DNA from: Hysterangium stoloniferum
Taxonomy: Eukaryota; Basidiomycota; Agaricomycetes; Hysterangiales; Hysterangiaceae
Direction: 5' to 3'
DNA: 64,000 nt
Assembly (NCBI GenBank): GCA_015178975.1
Contig: WHVD01000132.1
Coordinates: 124,001-188,000, forward strand
Made by a program: the position numbers and the translations under genes. This document shows positions 48,919 through 60,135 of the stretch, one piece after another (within the stretch, counting starts at the first letter, position 1; each line of letters starts with the position of its first letter). The notes below the pieces were generated by a model. That model was given only the letters and a program-made list of their open reading frames with translations. It did no database searches and was not told the DNA's origin.

Positions 48919-49671
48919 AGTATGATGTTATAACTCCAAAATTTGACCTACAGCATGTTTCCCAAAATTGCAGTCCATTTCAGCTTGCGAACCAATTCAT
49001 GAGCCAACAGATGTGTCACCCCCAATGAGCTTGTAATATGTTGTTTTACATGTATCTAGGTAGTAAAAAATGACAGCGCCTGGCTTTTTTGGTCAGAGCT
49101 AATGTGAGTGAGGTTGCCGAGTAAATGCATACAACTACCCTCATATAGGTTTGCAGCTGGTATTTAGACAGAAAAAGCCAGGTGCTGTCATTTTTTACTA
49201 CCTATATACATATAAAACAACATATTACAAGCTCATTGGGAGTGACACATTTTTTGGCTCATGAATTGGTTCGCAAGCTCAAATGGACTGCAATTTTGGG
49301 AAACATGCTGTAGGTCAAATTTTGGAGTTATAACATCATAATATACTATATATATAGTATTAAAATACGTATATGAAGTTACAAGAGAATTGGTCAATTA
49401 TTGAGCAAGCTACGAGGTTCACAACTTTCAGCAATATTTCCGTGCAAATCTAGCGCGCGCCTTATGTAATGCAAAGTGCTGTAATGAAGATGCAGTATTG
49501 CAGATTTAAACAATGGTAATGAGCACATGGAGTCTTCGTCCTCTTAGCCTTGATTTGCAGTGTTTGCTTGATTTGCAGTGTTGTTGAAATGAGTAATGGT
49601 TGATATATTAATATCTTACTGATGACTAATCATCTCAGTAGTAACTAGTTCTTAATAAAACTACTCTTAAT

Positions 49672-50394: not shown

Positions 50395-52244
50395 TCAGTA
50401 ATAATTAATCGGTTTGCATTTGGTATCCTGAGTGGGATCTTTGGGCGCTATGCTTACGTTACGGATCAGATTCGGTACATCTGCTTGTACACCAGATGTG
50501 GTGATACGGATATTACCCATGTTCAGTAGCCAAACATGCTCCCCACTTCGCCTCTTTAAGCAAGCGCATGGCAACGATGAATAGTTCGTAAGCGCTATAT
50601 TGAAAATACAAATTACATAAGGACTCTTGAGAAAAGATCTTCGTAGAATATGAGAAGCATAATGGTCCATCGGACAAGGGAACACTGACAGTCAGATACT
50701 TACGGAGTTGAAGAGTCTTCAATATCCTTCATCCTGGTGGCTACTGCCTTCTGGGTGGCATTCGACAAGAATTTGGCAGCGGTCCATACGGATTTGGGTG
50801 CGCTCCATATGGATTTTGTGGCATTCCATACGCCGATGGAAGATCGATACCATATGGCAGAAGAGGCGGCCCATGTGGTAGATGGCTCACATAGGGGTGA
50901 GTCAGCACGCCTGGACCTATTGCAGTGGGTGGTGCCGCCTGTTCCATTCCGCTAGAGGATCCGTCATAACCTCCGCGCCCTACATTCATTCGTTCTCGCA
51001 CTGTACCCCTCCTTTCCCCTACGTCCCCTTCGCTCCCTATATTACCTTCTCCTCGCCTGTAATCATCCCTCCCCGTGCTATCATATTAATCGGCATCTCG
51101 GCCGTGATCCTCCCCAGTGGCCTTTGCCCCGCCTCCCTCGGTGGTCGGCTATAACCTCCTTGTCCTGTATCCCCCCTCTGTGAATGTATCTACCTCTCAC
51201 TGTATCATGATATCCCTGTTCGTGGTCATATCTATCTCTCCCCGTATTGTCGCGCCTGCCACCGCTCCGGGCGGCCCCACTCCCGCCTCGCTCGGAACGT
51301 CGGTCGTTCCAGTCGAATCCATCGTCCTCCTAATTGGATCCGCCAATCGTCTGAATCGGATCATCACTCTCGTCTTTCCAATATGCGCTGCGTCCTTCCC
51401 CCCATCCCTCACCTCCAACGTCTCCGCCGACCCATTCCCTGGCCTCTCTCCGCCTCCGCCTCCATATCCCCATCCCATCCCTATCCCAAATCCCGCCCTC
51501 CCATAATGACCTTTCCTCCTCCCTGTCCTCTCCCCACGCTGGTCTTTTCGCTCCGCTTTCCCCTCCGCCCTCCCCTTCCCTTTCCCTTCCCTTTTCCACC
51601 GCTCCGCAGTCGGTTTGTCCATTTTTGTTGGCACATTAATGCTGGGAGAAGGGCGGTTGTCCTCCCCTTTAAAAAGGTGGAAATTATTTTGACTCCACAT
51701 GCAAGGTATTTTCAGTACTTACAATATGTCCAAGAGTCTTGGATTCTTTCCAGTTTGCCGTGTTCAAGGTGCATATACGGATCAGCCGTATTGAGGTTCG
51801 TCGCTGTTTCGCTTGGGATGAATTCTCCATCATTTCCAACCCAGAGGAAAGTAGGTTTCGGGTTCGGAAGGTAGTCATGACTCTTGCCATCTGCTGAGTA
51901 GCTGAATCGTATTGGTTGTCTCATAAGGCGATCGGTCGGGACAGGAATGTTCGAATTGAGAAATATGACCGGACTCCACCAACCGTGATCTGCCTGCAAC
52001 GCGCTATCAGCCTCTCCATCTGTGACTGTAGAAATGCAGAAAGAAAACAGACATTTTTACGAGAAACATAATTCCCTGTTCTATGATTCAACTGCGCACC
52101 ATACAACGGAGCAATATTTTGTTCGAACAACCAAACATGGACGATATTTTCGGGACGCTTCTCCTGACAATGAGTCCGAAGCAACGGCGAATACTTTGCT
52201 AGTAGGGAGATAGAAGACGACTTGTCCAGGATTTTGGCAACCAC
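50395..52244 (-). CDS. Multi-exon gene for an RG-rich, Pro/Tyr/Gly-rich protein (unrecognised)
   Basis: Minus strand, start ATG at 52244. Exon 1 (to about 52106) contains NIVHVWLFEQNIAPLY. A GTGCGC..TCTACAG intron of about 75 nt follows. Exon 2 (about 52030-51731) reads DHGWWSPVIFLNSNIPVPTD, then HDYLPNPKPTFLWVGNDGEF and HLEHGKLERIQDSWTY. Intron 51730-51676 (GTAAGTACTG..TTTAAAG) leads to exon 3, Lys/Gly/Arg-rich (KREGKGKGRAEGKAE, GWGYGGGGG). It continues as an Arg/Gly-rich stretch with frame changes at about 51370-51340 and 51100, which may be tiny introns. A Pro/Tyr part follows (MPQNPYGAHPNPYGPLPNSC, about 50830-50760). Exons beyond 50720 are uncertain. RG and PY repeats suggest RNA association; that is inference. 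The conserved-looking N-terminal exons match no family I can name. Confidence 0.5.
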
Positions 52245-52249
52245 ATGTA

Positions 52250-53430
52250 TGTCTTAAAGATTATCACTTCAGGAGAGGGGGGAAGTTTGATTGAGTGTTC
52301 ACTTCTTGGTAGACATTATATATGCTCACAATTTGCCGCCCTAAGGAACAATAAAGCCTCGTAGAGATACTCACACTAGCAATTATCTTGTGAATGTTAT
52401 CAATATCGGAGAGAAGTGAGATCCAGAGTTTCACTGAATAGGTCCTATTTATTCGCTAATAATGACCGCCAACCAAGATAAGACGAGGCACGTGTCCCTT
52501 TGCACAACTCCGATTTGTATTACAATATATATGGGAGGTATTCACAATTAAAGGCCAACATCGCACCCCGCGGTAGGTCTATCGGGTCAGTCAACAATAT
52601 TTGCCTCTGGGGGTTAATTCGACATCAGGAGACGCTGGCAAGGCGCTCCACCAAATATCCATAGCGCAGCAAAGTAAAACAATCCAAATCAATCGTAAGA
52701 CGGTTAGTCGGAGACGGTCTTTTCAACACTGTGCAGTCAGGTGGGTACTATTACAAGTTACATTTTCCCCTTTCCCAGACCCAATCCGCTTGTTGCTCCT
52801 TGCGATAAGAATTTTCCCTACCAATCGCTCGTCAATAGGGGCATCTCTATTCTCAAAAAAGTTAGAACTTTCTTTGAGCTCAGGTTCTATAGTAGCTCGC
52901 AAAAGGGTTATCACAAGACCGTCGGGTGCGATGAAACAATAGCCATGTACATTATAATAAGTCCATTCAAATTACAGTACTTGGGGCAAATCGGTACTTC
53001 TTTGTGCCTCCTATTTTTTATTTAATTGATGTTTGTATTGTGCAAATTCCACGTATTGAGTTCACTCATGCTTGGCATTACGACATAACAGATTACACCT
53101 CCGAGTGCAGCCAGCTACGGCTACATGTCTCGCAAGGCATATACCATGTCTCAATATTCATATACACATATATTCTGTACCAGCGCGGCACATACCTCAT
53201 TCGTTTATACCTGTACGATACCCGTGATTGTAATGTTTGGTAGTTTACTTACAGTGTCACAGGTACTAAATATAGTCGTTTACACTCGTCTGTGTCGACT
53301 GAGAGTTAGTTGTTATACCATCTGTGTTTGGACAGAACGGCATGCCAGGTTAGCACCCTTATGTCGATTTAGGAAGACCAGAAGTGCCTGATAAGGATTA
53401 GGCAAACGTAGGCGTAAGCCAGTAGGTCAT
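52250..53430. other. Intergenic region between two divergently placed genes
   Basis: No exon chain or repeat recognised. It presumably holds the promoters of the minus-strand gene (start 52244) and of the kinase gene to the right. Confidence 0.4.
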
Positions 53431-53819
53431 AACAATTAGTGTTCGGACGCAGTTTCATGAGTATTTCAATCTCCGCAAGCGACTCCATGATGTCTACTTC
53501 CTGGCCAGCTCACTCATTTCATATCGCAAAACTATCCAAGCGTATTTCAGCCAATTGGACATCCCACTATGGGTTGTGTCAGGCCGCTGCGTTCCCAACC
53601 CGCCCCTTCTTAGCATTGCGTTTGTGTCTTTCTGAGATAGATTGTAAAAATATATCTGCTGATTTTAATCATATTCTTTTCCTGGTGTCGCGCCAAAAAC
53701 CGCCTGGTGAAAATCCACAGCACTTCTTCACTCTCGCCTCCAAGTTTAACCAAAAGAGTAGGCTTCTCCGTGTTGAACCACCGCTGAATTCTGGCCACTT
53801 ATCTCTTTACCTACACACA

Positions 53820-56513
53820 TCCCCACACATCCCTGATGATTCGGACAAAGCCAATATCCCCTCGCTAGCTCACCATTTAGATGAGGAAAGCTTTACTTTT
53901 TTCCGAGAGATAATGAGAGCCCATATGGATGAGTATCTTGAAAGTCATCATGGCGGCTACTGGACGCGTGCCGATGAAGTCTCAAAAGAATATCTGAAGC
54001 CAAGGTACGCCTGCGTGTTCGATAGCACGGTCCTAGAGGAGACCAGAATCCTTGCGAAGGAAGAGGTCAAATCATTAACGGAGAAGCCTTCAATATACGA
54101 AGAGATGGCAATATTTCAACAGTATGCTACCTACAGATATGATGGCATAGTCCTTTCGGCTAATCTCTTTTTTATTTTGAGGTTGTGTGCTGATTATTCT
54201 TGGGGTGGGGTGGGCAATACGATCATATGGGCTTCCAATCACTGCCAGGTATGCTTTGGTATTGTCGTCAGGTGTTATCTCACGCCTGCTATAGTATTAT
54301 TTAGACAATGGCTTTCCTCGAACGTCACCGATGCTGCCGATATCTGTGTACACCGGACTGTACCCTACATTCTATGCTGGTTTCAAAAAGAACGCATTGA
54401 TTTTGCAGTCCATGGTGATCCCCCACAACGGCGACCTGCGTGTTCCCAAAGATGACAATGATTCGGCACCTTTCGATTGGGACTGGGATGAGGGACTTGA
54501 CGACGACTTGGAGGATGTTCCACCTAACCAACCTGCAGTCTCGGCCTCTGACATTAAGGTTATTGCCTTTGATTTGTTGGGGACGCTTCTTGTAAGTAAA
54601 CCTATTGTTGTGGAAGTGAAGGGGACTGAATGTTCTTTAGAATCGTCGGTCATCTTTAGAAAGGGGGTTGCGCATGCTCGTACCTGAAGATATAGCCAGT
54701 GATACCCTAATGGCCCATTACATTGAGTGTGAATCCCTTCGGTACTTAGCTAACAAAGCCGCTTCTTACGACGATATCGTTTACAACTCGCTGAAGGAAA
54801 TGTCAGTTCGTCTTGAAATTGACGTTGACGACAAATTGTTGCAAGACGCAACCAGAACTATCCTGAAAATCAGCTTCTATCCTGACGCCCTAGGGGTGAT
54901 AAAATCCCTGCATCATCGTGGTTATGTGGTGGTTGGACTCCCGCTTCCCTTGCAGAGTGTCTACTCTCTTCCTGAATTTCCACCCGAGCTTCTGACAGAT
55001 ATTTCTTATCAGACGGTAGACAGTCCGGAAGACTTATTTTTGCCAACACCCTCAGTCTTTCCTGCACTCCATCAACGGTGTCAAGTTTCCTACAGAGACA
55101 TCCAGCCTGCGCAGATCCTCGTGGTCACAGCAAGCTCTTTCCGCACCGTCGAGCCTGCAACAGCAGCAGGGTTCCCGACTGTCTTGCTCCCAACCAGTGA
55201 AGTATGTGAACCTGAAGTCGATACCTCACGGTGGGAGCCTACGATATATTCGGATGACTTGTTAGATCTATGCAACACGTTAGAAGCATCATCATCACAT
55301 ATTTCTGCGGAGCCGGCCGAACTTGAGCACCCTCATAGTAGAGAATTTCGAGTGCACACATTTTTCCAAGCTTTGTATCATCTTGGCAGCGGTAGCAGCG
55401 GTTCGTACAATTGATTTATTATTGTTTGCTCCATGCTGACGAATGCTTTTACTATTTCAGGGCAGGTCTACGCAGGATACCATGTCCTTTCTGGAAACCA
55501 TGTTGCAATTAAAATGGAGACACCAGAGGACAAATCCGACGAGAAGTATACAGTCCCATATGAAGCTCAGGTATACAAAGTCTTTGGCAGTCATCCCGGG
55601 GTTCCTCGGATCAGGTGGGCCGGTCCGGATGGTAATGTACATGCCTTGATTATGGATAGGGTTGGACCGACACTGGAGCATCTCCGGAGGTTATGTCGAG
55701 GTACATTCACACACAGAACGGTCACAATGCTTGCTCTGCAAATGGTTAGTCCATTTGTCCTCTGAAGTTACAGTCATAGTGTTTGATATTATTTTTTTCT
55801 TTAGCTAGAAAGGGTCGAATTTGCCCACTCCCGTGGCATTATTATTCGTGACATCAAACCCCAAAACTTCGCCATGGGAACCAAGAGCCGTGCTCATGTT
55901 GTTCAAATATTTGATTTCGGACATTCGAAGCTTTATCTCGACCCATCGACTGGGGACCATATCCCGTATCGTGAAGGCCTAGGGCCCATAGGCACGCCTC
56001 GTTTCTCCAGTTATAATGTGCATTTTGGCAGAGGTTTGTTGCGTCTTCTAAGTCAAGAGACGTTACATAAAGCTACTATTGGGTTTTACAGAATCTAGCC
56101 GACGCGATGACATGGAAGCAGTCGGCAATACACTGCTTTATTTTTTTCACGGGTCATTGCCTTGGCAAGGTACAAAAGCAGAACGCCCCCAAGATTATTT
56201 CCTCCTAGGCGAAATGAAAGGAGGACAGTCGTTCGACGATTTCCTTTCTCGTTCGCCTCCCGAGTTTAAAACGTATTATAATCATTGCCGCAGTCTAGGA
56301 TTCGAAGATAAACCCGACTATATTTTTCTCAAAGGACTCTTCCAAAACAGAATGGCTAAAGAAAGATGGGCAGATGATGGGCATTTCGACTGGTTTATTG
56401 GGCGGTCATTAAAGAGGGGCACGCTTCTTCTTGATGAATACAAAGCTGACATCAGATTTGTCGAAACGGATTATGGGTGGATTAGAAGGTTTGATTACTC
56501 CCCCAGTATCTAA
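53820..56513 (+). CDS. HAD-like domain fused to a casein-kinase-1-like protein kinase
   Basis: Exons seen: about 53820-54150 (5' end unresolved; FREIMRAHMDEYLESHHGGYW), 54305-54591, 54641-55400, 55461-55744, 55805-56033 and 56092-56513. The last four introns are 49, 60, 60 and 58 nt, all GT-AG. HAD part: motif I IAFDLLGTLL (its exon ends here), PDALGVIKSLHHRGYVVVGL, and PAQILVVTASSFRTVEPATA, where active HADs have a GDS-type acid motif, so it is probably not catalytic. Kinase: the Gly-rich loop LGSGSSGQVYAGY is formed only across intron 55401-55460, which proves the fusion at transcript level if spliced. Then VAIKME, the C-helix Glu in VPYEAQVYKVF, IRDIKPQNF (HRD His replaced by Ile), IFDFGHSK, PYREGLGPIGTPRFSSYNVH and SRRDDMEAVGNTLLYF..GSLPWQG, the CK1 signature. 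Lys, Asp and DFG are all present, so activity is plausible. Confidence 0.8.
54305..55400 (+). other. HAD-like domain within the fusion gene
   Basis: It covers the acidic linker (FDWDWDEGLDDDLEDVPP), motif I at the end of exon 54305-54591, and the helical cap and core in exon 54641-55400. Motif I (DxxGT) is kept; the motif II Ser/Thr and motif IV acid are not evident. Confidence 0.65.
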
Positions 56514-56719
56514 TTTCACTACAGCTCCGTTTACCCACCCCCTTCCCGGCCTTGTTCTACTACCAATATGCGGTTCTCCTCACTTGCTCGAATTTCAATG
56601 CACGCCATGGTTACTGAATGGCTTGATATGGCACTCCTCAATCAATATAATACATCATTTAACTGTGTCTCCTGTCTGTGTATTCTTACTTCTTACTTCC
56701 CAAGCAGCAATTGGGGAAT

Positions 56720-57060
56720 CAACTAATCAGTGAATGTACAAATGCACTATTGTATGCTCAAATATCTTTGTGAAACTCCCTGCCATTGTCTGTACCATCC
56801 TCTAGGAGGGACCTTAAATTCTCAGGGACTGGCTGAAGTTTTGGAAGGACTATCTGTCCTTCCTTGCAACACATGTCAAATTTGGGATGTGTCTGAGAGC
56901 TACTTGACAGATGCTCATCCATTCAGTGAAAGGCTCCACAGTCTGAATACTGTATAGTCATAGGTTCCAAGTCATGTTTCACAATCATGTCTTCTATGAC
57001 TGGTTGCTGTCCAATGGTAATTGTTGAGCAGGAGGGAGACACCTTGGTTGCTCCCATTGG
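56720..57060 (-). pseudogene. Helitron Rep fragment (zinc-like region)
   Basis: The minus strand reads IGQQPVIEDMIVKHDLEP, YSDCGAFH-stop-MDEHLSSSSQTHPKF and NLRSLLEDGTDNGREFHKDI. This matches residues of the intact Helitron protein around its Cys-rich region (IGRQPVVEDRFQRHDLGR, SDCGALHWMDER, TLRSLLENNTDNSREFLKNI). Stops at two places. It lies just downstream of the kinase gene. Confidence 0.85.
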
Positions 57061-57410
57061 CTCTGTATACTCATGGAGCAACAGAAAAACTGCCTTTAAG
57101 GCCAGCCTGTCATTCCATAGTTTCTCTTCCATTCCTTACTTAGCAAAGATGAAGTAATAGCAGCAACTTTATCCTTGATGTAACTAATTGAGATAGGGAT
57201 GTGGGGAATTCTAGATGAGGAATCTATATTGCTATGTCAAGTTTTGGATATGCAAGATACATTGTCCCCCATGTGGCCAGTCAATAATTAGTGTTTTAAT
57301 GCAATATGGGCCATTGCAAGGCTCATTGGTCTATAATCAGTAGGATTCCAACTCCTCTGGGAATGGTTGGGAGTGGATTAGCCCTTCCTTCACCACTATG
57401 GCTTCACATT
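57061..57410. other. Stretch without recognisable genes
   Basis: Short decayed frames on the minus strand only; possibly more of the old Helitron or another element. Confidence 0.3.
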
Positions 57411-57415
57411 CAGTG

Positions 57416-58157
57416 TGTTAAGAACTGAAAACTGACTAATGATGGTAGGCCGACGGGGACCAATCGGAAGGACTTGGCTTCAGCTTATGTACTGCACCCT
57501 CACAAATGTCTGTCGGGTGTCCTTAAATTTCAGACGGGCGAAGACTAGTCCTAACAAGTACCTCTTGGTGAGTTACTGATCGGGACTGAAGGATAAGTCA
57601 AGTGTTGGGCCAAGGGGTCAGGGACCGAGAGTGGGTGAGCACACGTGAAGGCGGATAGTGGGATACTTAGTATAAGACTTCTAGAGGTGTAAGAGGGTAT
57701 TCTGAGTCGATATTCTGATTGCCTAGTAACTACAACTACAGCAGGTTCATATACAAGTATTTGGCATCTAGAAACTACTAACTAGGAGAAGAGTGGAAAA
57801 TGGTATTGACAAATAAGCTTGACTAGGAACAGGAAGGTTACGATTAGTTCAGAGGCCGTGAAATAACTGAGAGCGGGATTACGAGAAAAGGAAATAGTCT
57901 GAGGGTTACAAGTATATATAGACATATGTGAAACATAGAGTAGAACAGATCATCATAATAAAAAGGGACATATCAGAGTTTAACCAGATAGTACGAGTAT
58001 ATTTTGATGGGGGCGTAAATGGAGTTTGATCACCACGAAAGTGTATGTCAGCATCGGGAGTCCAACAGTTTCCAATGCAGTGACTTGAACACTAACTTGA
58101 AACATCGATAGGTGGCGATAACCTTGGGGACCATCGGGTTGCAACACAGTTGTAACA
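57416..58157 (-). mobile_element. Solo LTR (family C), 742 bp, target duplication CAGTG
   Basis: The minus strand reads TGTTACAACTGTG to AGTTCTTAACA. CAGTG flanks at 57411-57415 and 58158-58162. Collinear with the inner LTR at 47676-48397. Confidence 0.93.
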
Positions 58158-58284
58158 CAGTGGTGGAGTGGTTGCATTCTTAATCCTTGAGCATACAGTT
58201 CCAATAAGCAATTACTCATTCCACTGTAACAAGTGAATTGACCAAAGAATCACTCCATTCTGTCATGAAAATAGAAAACCTCCT

Positions 58285-58475
58285 CTCAGACCTAAGCAGG
58301 CCTGAGCAGGTCAGTCAGATGCTCAGATTTGCCAACTGACAGATCAGGCCTGATTCCATTGAAGACTCGGACAAGGCCTGTCCAGGCTAGTCAGGTGACC
58401 TGCTTAGGCCTGAACAGGTCACGTGGACCTGAACAGGGTTAATCAGGCTTGGACAGGTCATGTCAACTAAATAAA
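58285..58475 (+). repeat. Degenerate GGCCTGANCAGG-type short repeats
   Basis: About twelve scattered or tandem copies of a 10-12-bp motif CCTGANCAGGTCA with intervening variation. The remaining part of 58163-59000 shows no gene. Confidence 0.6.
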
Positions 58476-59002
58476 AATAAAAAAGGGTGGAGCAGGTCAA
58501 ACAACCTGACAGGACCACACAACTCCCTCTCTTATATTTGTCCCAGCTCTAATTAATTCTTTGATTACTAGCTCTCATTGTGGCCGATGATTAGGCACCC
58601 AAGAGATACACGGAGCAAATGAGATTTAATTAATTTACACAAAACACGAATTGAACACACAACCAACAAATAGCTTACATACTCACGACAATACAACATT
58701 ACAACTAAACTATGAGACCTTTACAAGCAAACTTCTTGCGTGGTCTAGATAACTACCAACAATTTCTCCACTTAATATAAGACAATATCAGCTTCATTCT
58801 ATGGTCACTTTTGACTTATCTACCTGAGCTCTATGTATATAAATATGATAGATAGGTAGATATGTTCCATTTTTATAGTAGCATCAGGTGGCTACTCTGG
58901 TACCTAATATTCAATTACATACCTGACTACAGACACATGTTTTAAAGAAATCAACTCCAGGAATTTGCCCCTTGCAACCAGGCATGCTTTTTGTGTGACT
59001 AG

Positions 59003-59152
59003 ATATTAAGAACAGAAAACTGACTGATGTCAGAAGAACAACAGGGACTGAATGGAAGGACTTGGCTTCAGCTTATGTGCTGCACCCTCACAAGTTACCA
59101 TCAGGTGTCCTTAAATTTCGGGCAGGCAAGAACTAATCCTGTCAAGTAAACC
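59003..59152 (-). mobile_element. Truncated LTR fragment (family B/C)
   Basis: It contains the shared LTR landmark GACTTGGCTTCAGCTTATGTGCTGC and the 3' LTR end (TTAAGAAC) at its left side. The rest of the LTR is missing and no target duplication is seen. Confidence 0.65.
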
Positions 59153-59289
59153 TTATGGTAGGCTACATCATACATTACAGTAGCTTAGTCATCAGTTGTA
59201 TTTACTAAGGGACTTTGTCACCCCCTCACCCACATGATAACCTGTTGTCACCAGGAAAAGCCCTTGCTTCAAAGATTTTTAGGATCCTC

Positions 59290-59545
59290 AGTAAAGGCTT
59301 ATTTGATATAAACTCCGCCAATCACTCATCAGATCCTTTAACTGATTTAAAGTCGGTTCAGGATTAACATGTGATTGGCAGGTTTAGAATCCAACGAACT
59401 TTTGGATCCTTAAAAGATCCATAATTGAGTTAACTTCAGTTAAGGATCTAACATGTGATTGCAGGGTTTAGAATCCAATAAACTTTAGGATCCTCAAAAG
59501 ATCCCTAATTAATTTTAACTCTTATAAGGATTCAATAGATGGCTA
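59290..59545 (+). repeat. Tandem repeats of about 85 bp (AACATGTGATTG..GGTTTAGAATCCAA)
   Basis: Two clear copies (from about 59369 and 59448) and a weaker one before them. Each has TTTAGAATCCAA.AACTTT and GGATCCT.AAAAGATCC inverted elements. Confidence 0.75.
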
Positions 59546-59599
59546 TTGGAGCACTGCTCTACTAAGGATCCTAAAATGTTTTGGAGAGGGGGGTTATTC

Positions 59600-59745
59600 C
59601 GGTGTGTATATTCTTACACTTTCCTGATCAAATTTCTTGTTAAGGTGTCTTAAAAGTCCATGCCTGGTGTAACTGCCCAATTTGGGCAAAGCAATGGCAT
59701 CTATTCACATCACACTGCCCTGCGGAAACTGGGCACATGGTTCTG
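59600..59745 (-). repeat. Fragment of dispersed repeat S
   Basis: The minus strand shares the order CCATGTGCC..GATGCCAT.GCTT.GCCCA..TTTTAAGACACCTTAACAAGAAATTT with 25545-25660. Confidence 0.6.
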
Positions 59746-60135
59746 GTGGATAACAATGTAAACAATTTATGCAGGAGTACTAGGACTATAGCCCTGGATG
59801 GACTTGCAACTCACAGGGCATGTAGTGAGCTAGCAGAGGATATTATGCACAATATCATTGTAGGTACAGCTGTTGGCCAAAAATGCACTCATACACCATC
59901 TTTTGACAGTCCCAGGCAAGAAGAGATAGGATCTGGAGCAGGAGCTGATGGTGAGATAAGGAAGTGTGCAAAAAAAGGTCAGTTCACTCTGCATCTTTAC
60001 TACACTTTAGCTAATATTCCCACAGGGATCAGCTCAGTCCTGGCCATTAAGATATATATTAATGAAGATGCTGATCACACAAATACCTATGCAAAACGAG
60101 CAAGGACCTTAATGATCAAGGTAAGTATATTTTAA
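59737..60135 (+). CDS. Hypothetical open frame (about 132 codons), possible first exon
   Basis: It starts at ATG 59737 (MVLVDNNVNNLCRSTRTIAL) and stays open to 60135, with a good GTAAGTATAT donor at 60120 after TLMIK. Middle part GQKCTHTPSFDSPRQEEIGS, later KKGQFTLHLYYTLANIPTGI. No known domain. It sits among dead elements, so it may be a fragment of one. Confidence 0.25.
   Translation: MVLVDNNVNNLCRSTRTIALDGLATHRACSELAEDIMHNIIVGTAVGQKCTHTPSFDSPRQEEIGSGAGADGEIRKCAKKGQFTLHLYYTLANIPTGISSVLAIKIYINEDADHTNTYAKRARTLMIKVSIF

Follow-up and report, generated by a model that had tools for sequence, protein, structure and literature searches.

The stretch of DNA analysed here (the window, 64,000 nucleotides) is positions 124001-188000 of contig C38 in the genome of Hysterangium stoloniferum, which comprises 111 Mb in 554 contigs. 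The forward strand of the window carries a predicted gene, the spliced frame of which runs from a HAD part into a CK1-type kinase, together with a coding-like frame upstream. The features are as follows, in window positions.

53520..54121, plus strand: upstream frame (HSFHIAKL...), coding-like by its dN/dS against the copy on contig C537, a candidate part of the same gene
54227..54248, plus strand: candidate first coding exon, ATG at 54227 (MGFQSLP), with an in-frame join to 54305-54591 across intron 54249-54304
54305..54591, plus strand: exon with acidic linker, HAD beta-1 and motif I (FDLLGT), read from the spliced frame and the linker dN/dS
54592..54640, plus strand: intron (GT...AG), phase 0, immediately 3' of FDLLGTLL
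54641..55400, plus strand: exon with degenerate type II HAD cap and core, linker, CK1 beta-1 and the first half of the Gly-rich loop
55401..55460, plus strand: intron (GT...AG), phase 1, within the Gly-rich loop
55461..55744, plus strand: kinase exon with ATP-binding Lys and alpha-C
55745..55804, plus strand: intron (GT...AG), phase 0
55805..56033, plus strand: kinase exon with catalytic loop (IRDIKPQN) and DFG
56034..56091, plus strand: intron, phase 1, required for the frame to reach its stop
56092..56513, plus strand: kinase C-lobe and short tail, stop codon at 56511-56513

Removal of intron 55401-55460 joins GSGSSG to QVYAGY and completes the Gly-rich loop, LGSGSSGQVYAGY, just as an earlier note on this DNA had read it. 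The same note had the HAD core share an exon with the opening half of the loop, and exon 54641-55400 is indeed a single open frame of 253 codons that runs from the HAD domain through to the CK1 Gly-rich loop. Motif I, which it had assigned to that exon as well, is kept but lies in the preceding exon, and the gene start that the note had put near 53820 gained no support as an exon boundary. Introns 54592-54640, 55401-55460 and 55745-55804 are conserved in position in all four near-complete copies of the gene in the genome. The only in-frame ATGs of exon 54641-55400 are found at 54674, 54710 and 54800, and the stretch that leads from the HAD core to the Gly-rich loop (54800 to 55400) has none; therefore there is no independent kinase start in this part of the exon. 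Further along this frame, the next ATG (55433) falls within intron 55401-55460. The shared exon, the conserved splice sites and the lack of an in-frame ATG after 54800 bear out the proposal of one gene encoding a HAD part followed by a CK1-type kinase, and it is highly probable that the two parts form a single fused gene.

The kinase part is assigned to CK1 by every test applied to its sequence. The Pfam search suggested in the earlier note gave a divided answer, in that Pkinase scored above its cut-off (86.4 vs. 31.7 bits) but the Pfam HAD domains PF00702 and PF12710 stayed below their gathering scores (16.1 vs. 26.4 and 16.9 vs. 27 bits). Among the best 60 of 904 PDB matches, the closest were CK1 structures, the top one being 3sv0 (casein kinase I-like, E = 1.7e-77). 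When the spliced frame is aligned to CK1, the catalytic VAIK Lys, RD Asp and DFG Asp are all present, and the kinase would probably be active if the protein is made. Compared with CK1 of the Hrr25/CK1-delta type, the kinase domain is likewise whole, and the intron in the Gly-rich loop and the following intron are common to the CK1 gene on contig C509, whereas the fusion adds an N-terminal HAD domain and has Ile in place of the HRD His. It also has Asp aligned to Lys224 of CK1-delta, a residue with a role in phosphate binding. The replacement of the HRD His by Ile had been singled out before; it is real but only mildly odd, with Val at this position in the C537 copy and Tyr in other CK1-like genes of the genome, the His itself being found in the CK1 genes of contigs C23 and C509.

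The HAD part is, as judged by descent in sequence, a degenerate haloacid dehalogenase type II domain. The NCBIfam model TIGR01428 (haloacid dehalogenase type II) matched residues 5-117, the first half of the HAD part (E = 3.3e-13), with 50.1 bits, far short of the curated cut-off of 125.4 bits. In the PDB (E up to 10), all eight matches of the single sequence were 2-haloacid dehalogenases (best E = 0.03), as were 10 of the 13 matches of a two-sequence profile (best E = 5.9e-4), the remaining three being chains of the WAVE complex. A stand-alone HAD type II gene at 438 kb of contig C68 encodes a protein of 243 residues; this gene model is one of four allowed by the script and was chosen because it fits the HAD type II family. 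In a single comparison, the C68 protein aligned with the fusion over residues 5-197 at 21% identity (E = 8e-4). Bacterial genomes were scanned with the C68 protein, not the fusion, as the query, which gave 36 loci; 29 of these and the C68 protein make up a set of 30 relatives. Aligned with this set by hhalign, the HAD profile of the fusion reached 97.2% (E = 3.6e-11, 189 columns), and the control with the upstream frame 0.1%. An alignment-based structure model of the HAD part, which does not include motif I, was only fair (pLDDT 70.1, pTM 0.56); it matches structures of the haloacid dehalogenase type II family but is not independent evidence, because its alignment came from the same family. 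Modelled by itself without an alignment, the HAD exon reached a pLDDT of 33.9. No relatives were found in viral contigs searched with the HAD exon.

The motif I Asp is the nucleophile of HAD enzymes. None of the 30 relatives departs from the motif I Asp and Thr, the motif II Asn, the motif III Lys or the motif IV Ser and Asp. Of these residues, both from motif I and the Ser from motif IV remain in the fusion; Leu replaces the motif III Lys and Thr the motif IV Asp, and motif II has lost its SN pair, the alignment being loose around this motif. The motif III Lys and motif IV Asp are absent from the C537 copy too, and the motif I Asp and Thr are retained in both lineages compared (window and C537). 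The loss of the motif IV acid had been noticed before and holds, the HD of the relatives' SLFHD reading RT in the fusion's SSFRT. VTASS, which had been taken as its sign, does not mark it; the relatives show VAQSLFHD or VTAISLFHD at this place, so VTASS is a variant of a motif that belongs to the family, with the loss located a few residues further on. The full catalytic set of haloacid dehalogenase type II is thus incomplete (Asn, Lys and Asp are lost), and the HAD part is very probably catalytically dead.

The enzymes to which it has to be compared are haloacid dehalogenase type II and L-azetidine-2-carboxylate hydrolase (TIGR01428; PDB 8hp5-8hp7, 3smv, 8yvw and 8ywo). In the PDB, the titles of 8hp6 and 8hp7 (mutants D12A and K152A) flag that Asp and Lys as catalytically of interest. 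In contrast to these enzymes, the fusion is without the invariant Asn, Lys and Asp, scores far under the TIGR01428 and Pfam cut-offs and has a kinase attached. Measured against the defining features of the enzyme, the predicted HAD part is not a haloacid dehalogenase. AzhA of Aspergillus nidulans (PMC8016842), an L-azetidine-2-carboxylate hydrolase, is counted among these closest known enzymes.

Stand-alone relatives of both parts are found in the same genome, and their introns were compared with those of the fusion. The intron after motif I (54592-54640) occurs at the same place and in phase 0 in the HAD gene at C68:438 kb, where four joins were possible and the one taken has the best donor among those yielding the family's GTLVDWETG; it is absent from another stand-alone HAD gene, on C334. 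The intron within the Gly-rich loop had been given prominence in the earlier note. It is real, but it is an old CK1 intron, inherited by the fusion, because the stand-alone CK1 genes on C23 and C509 have it at the same position and in phase 1. Intron 55745-55804 is at the same place in the C509 CK1 gene. Intron 56034-56091 is missing from the C23 and C509 genes and has a counterpart in other CK1-like genes, so no single CK1 parent is singled out. The fusion point lies just 5' of the CK1 start, where REFRVHTFFQALYHLGSGSSG takes the place of a 21-residue stretch of the stand-alone gene, and the first-exon Met of the stand-alone CK1 genes is lost. Most likely, a HAD type II gene contributed its 5' part, which became linked in frame to a CK1 gene directly upstream of that gene's start, and both parent genes would have brought their own introns into the fusion.

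Four near-complete copies of the gene were found: the one in the window, an inverted copy at C38:98 kb and those on C257 and C537. A fifth place, on C529, retains no more than the upstream frame and the beginning of the HAD part. The copies in the window and on C257 are open across both domains (about 650 codons). In the inverted C38 copy, codon 349, immediately before HLGSGSSG, is a stop, and the C537 copy has one nine codons 5' of the motif I Asp. Across the HAD exon, the C537 copy is 77% identical to that of the window. Against C537, dN/dS was 0.30 for the HAD part (95% bootstrap 0.19-0.45), 0.23 for the kinase (95% bootstrap 0.15-0.33) and 0.41 for linker 54307-54540 (bootstrap 0.19-0.89); the HAD exon read in its two wrong frames gave 1.07 and 1.60. 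These values for the two domains are well under 1, and both were therefore constrained for a period following the fusion. In the comparison with C257, a near-identical copy, the HAD value of 0.475 (0.15-2.42) says little and is inseparable from the wrong frames (0.73 and 0.475); the kinase gave 0.245 (0.08-0.64) and the linker 1.15. Purifying selection has acted on both domains in the past, which does not imply present use of the window's copy.

We give an even chance to the explanation as a whole, namely a fusion of a degenerate HAD type II domain with CK1 in which an active kinase carries a non-hydrolysing HAD part as its N-terminal scaffold. The earlier note had likewise suggested that a non-catalytic HAD part may steer the kinase. 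The HAD fold would act on the kinase without hydrolysis, through pairing, localisation or substrate docking; taken by itself, this scaffold or docking role of the pseudo-HAD is a tentative proposal, a little short of an even chance. Kinases with pseudo-enzyme partners or domains exist, and the trait shared with them would be the combination of an active kinase with a catalytically dead enzyme fold. We know of no pseudo-enzyme kinase with the haloacid-dehalogenase type II fold. A further reading is a metabolite-sensing kinase, in which the pocket of the pseudo-dehalogenase, its motif I Asp retained, binds a small haloacid- or azetidine-carboxylate-like molecule and thereby switches or relocates CK1. 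This is quite unlikely; if true, the protein would be a receptor-like kinase derived from a detoxification enzyme. Equally unlikely is a two-enzyme protein, the HAD part of which retains a new kind of hydrolase or phosphatase activity: the motif I Asp and Thr kept in both lineages and the purifying selection on the HAD part are consistent with it, but the Lys, Asn and Asp that no relative has lost are absent.

A larger, though still minor, share of probability goes to the copies being decaying products of segmental or transposon-driven duplication, with the window's copy still open but yielding no functional protein. The stops in two of the four near-complete copies and the remnant on C529 point to decay, as do the repeat-rich surroundings, the inverted duplication of about 50.5-59.8 kb of the window on the same contig and the upstream frame without a convincing join; against it stand the low dN/dS of both domains since the split from C537, the two copies open over both domains and the splice sites preserved in all four. 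That a HAD pseudogene and a following CK1 gene were wrongly joined is highly improbable. The stop of the inverted C38 copy does fall exactly between the domains, and the intronic ATG 55433, in the kinase frame, could begin a shortened kinase. However, such a start would lose beta-1 and the loop, the stretch it lies in is not conserved in C537, the own Met of the stand-alone CK1 first exon is gone, and we rejected two separate genes on account of the divided Gly-rich loop, the lack of an in-frame ATG and the loss that a start at 55433 entails. If the fusion protein is made, it would be a natural example of a metabolic enzyme fold converted to a kinase module and a CK1 kinase that carries an N-terminal partner of its own, and the order of events would be readable, as both parents still have stand-alone relatives, introns included, in the same genome. 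If it is merely a decaying duplicate, it would be another chimeric gene in a repeat-rich fungal genome. In the portions available of the literature on HAD-CK1 proteins and on fungal CK1 expansion, no HAD-CK1 protein was found, in keeping with the earlier note, which knew of no such architecture; it may be known in databases, because the search did not extend to fungal protein or genome collections.

The 5' end of the gene is less definite. From the candidate start ATG 54227, the spliced frame comprises 667 codons and a stop. This ATG reads GTG in the C537 copy, and further in-frame Met codons are present downstream of it. The upstream frame (53520-54121) is seen only next to copies of the fusion gene; dN/dS (53520-54119) was 0.43 (0.29-0.65) against C537 and 1.03 (0.50-4.76) against C257. 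It had no match in Pfam and a single match in the PDB search, to an unrelated protein (E = 0.073). Among 14 open one-intron joins from the upstream frame to the HAD frame, no convincing splice was found: those at the conserved acceptor 54304 use weak donors and the remaining ones weak acceptors. In C257 and C537, the upstream frame has a basic, acid-poor start (M-A/T-H-...FH-I/V-AKLS) like that of a mitochondrial presequence; the stretch with this start is absent from the window's copy.

Repeats and further kinase fragments were also observed. An inverted version of most of window 50494-59761 lies around C38:93.5-108.8 kb, on the window's own contig, and matches piecewise at 92-98% identity. 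The segment 57416-58157, about 0.9 kb downstream of the gene, is a repeat (about 740 bases) with many copies at 88-92%. Another, at 48921-49491 (about 565 bases), has many copies (the best 40 candidates were scored), with offset matches on both strands, as expected of a palindromic or inverted-repeat element. A decayed CK1 copy (C509:164.4-165.3 kb), with a stop in the region of the Gly-loop exon, adjoins the intact CK1 gene at C509:158 kb. At all three loci read, on C512, C124 and C157, a copia-type reverse transcriptase fragment (RVT_2, E = 4e-6, 27 bits, below the cut-off) is followed immediately by a CK1-like kinase that is truncated at its 5' end. The same kinase stretch occurs at nine places in the genome (34-36% identity); this unit has apparently been multiplied. 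The repeat at 58261-58922 of the window recurs about 1.9 kb downstream of kinase fragments on C124, C68 and C157, on the opposite strand.
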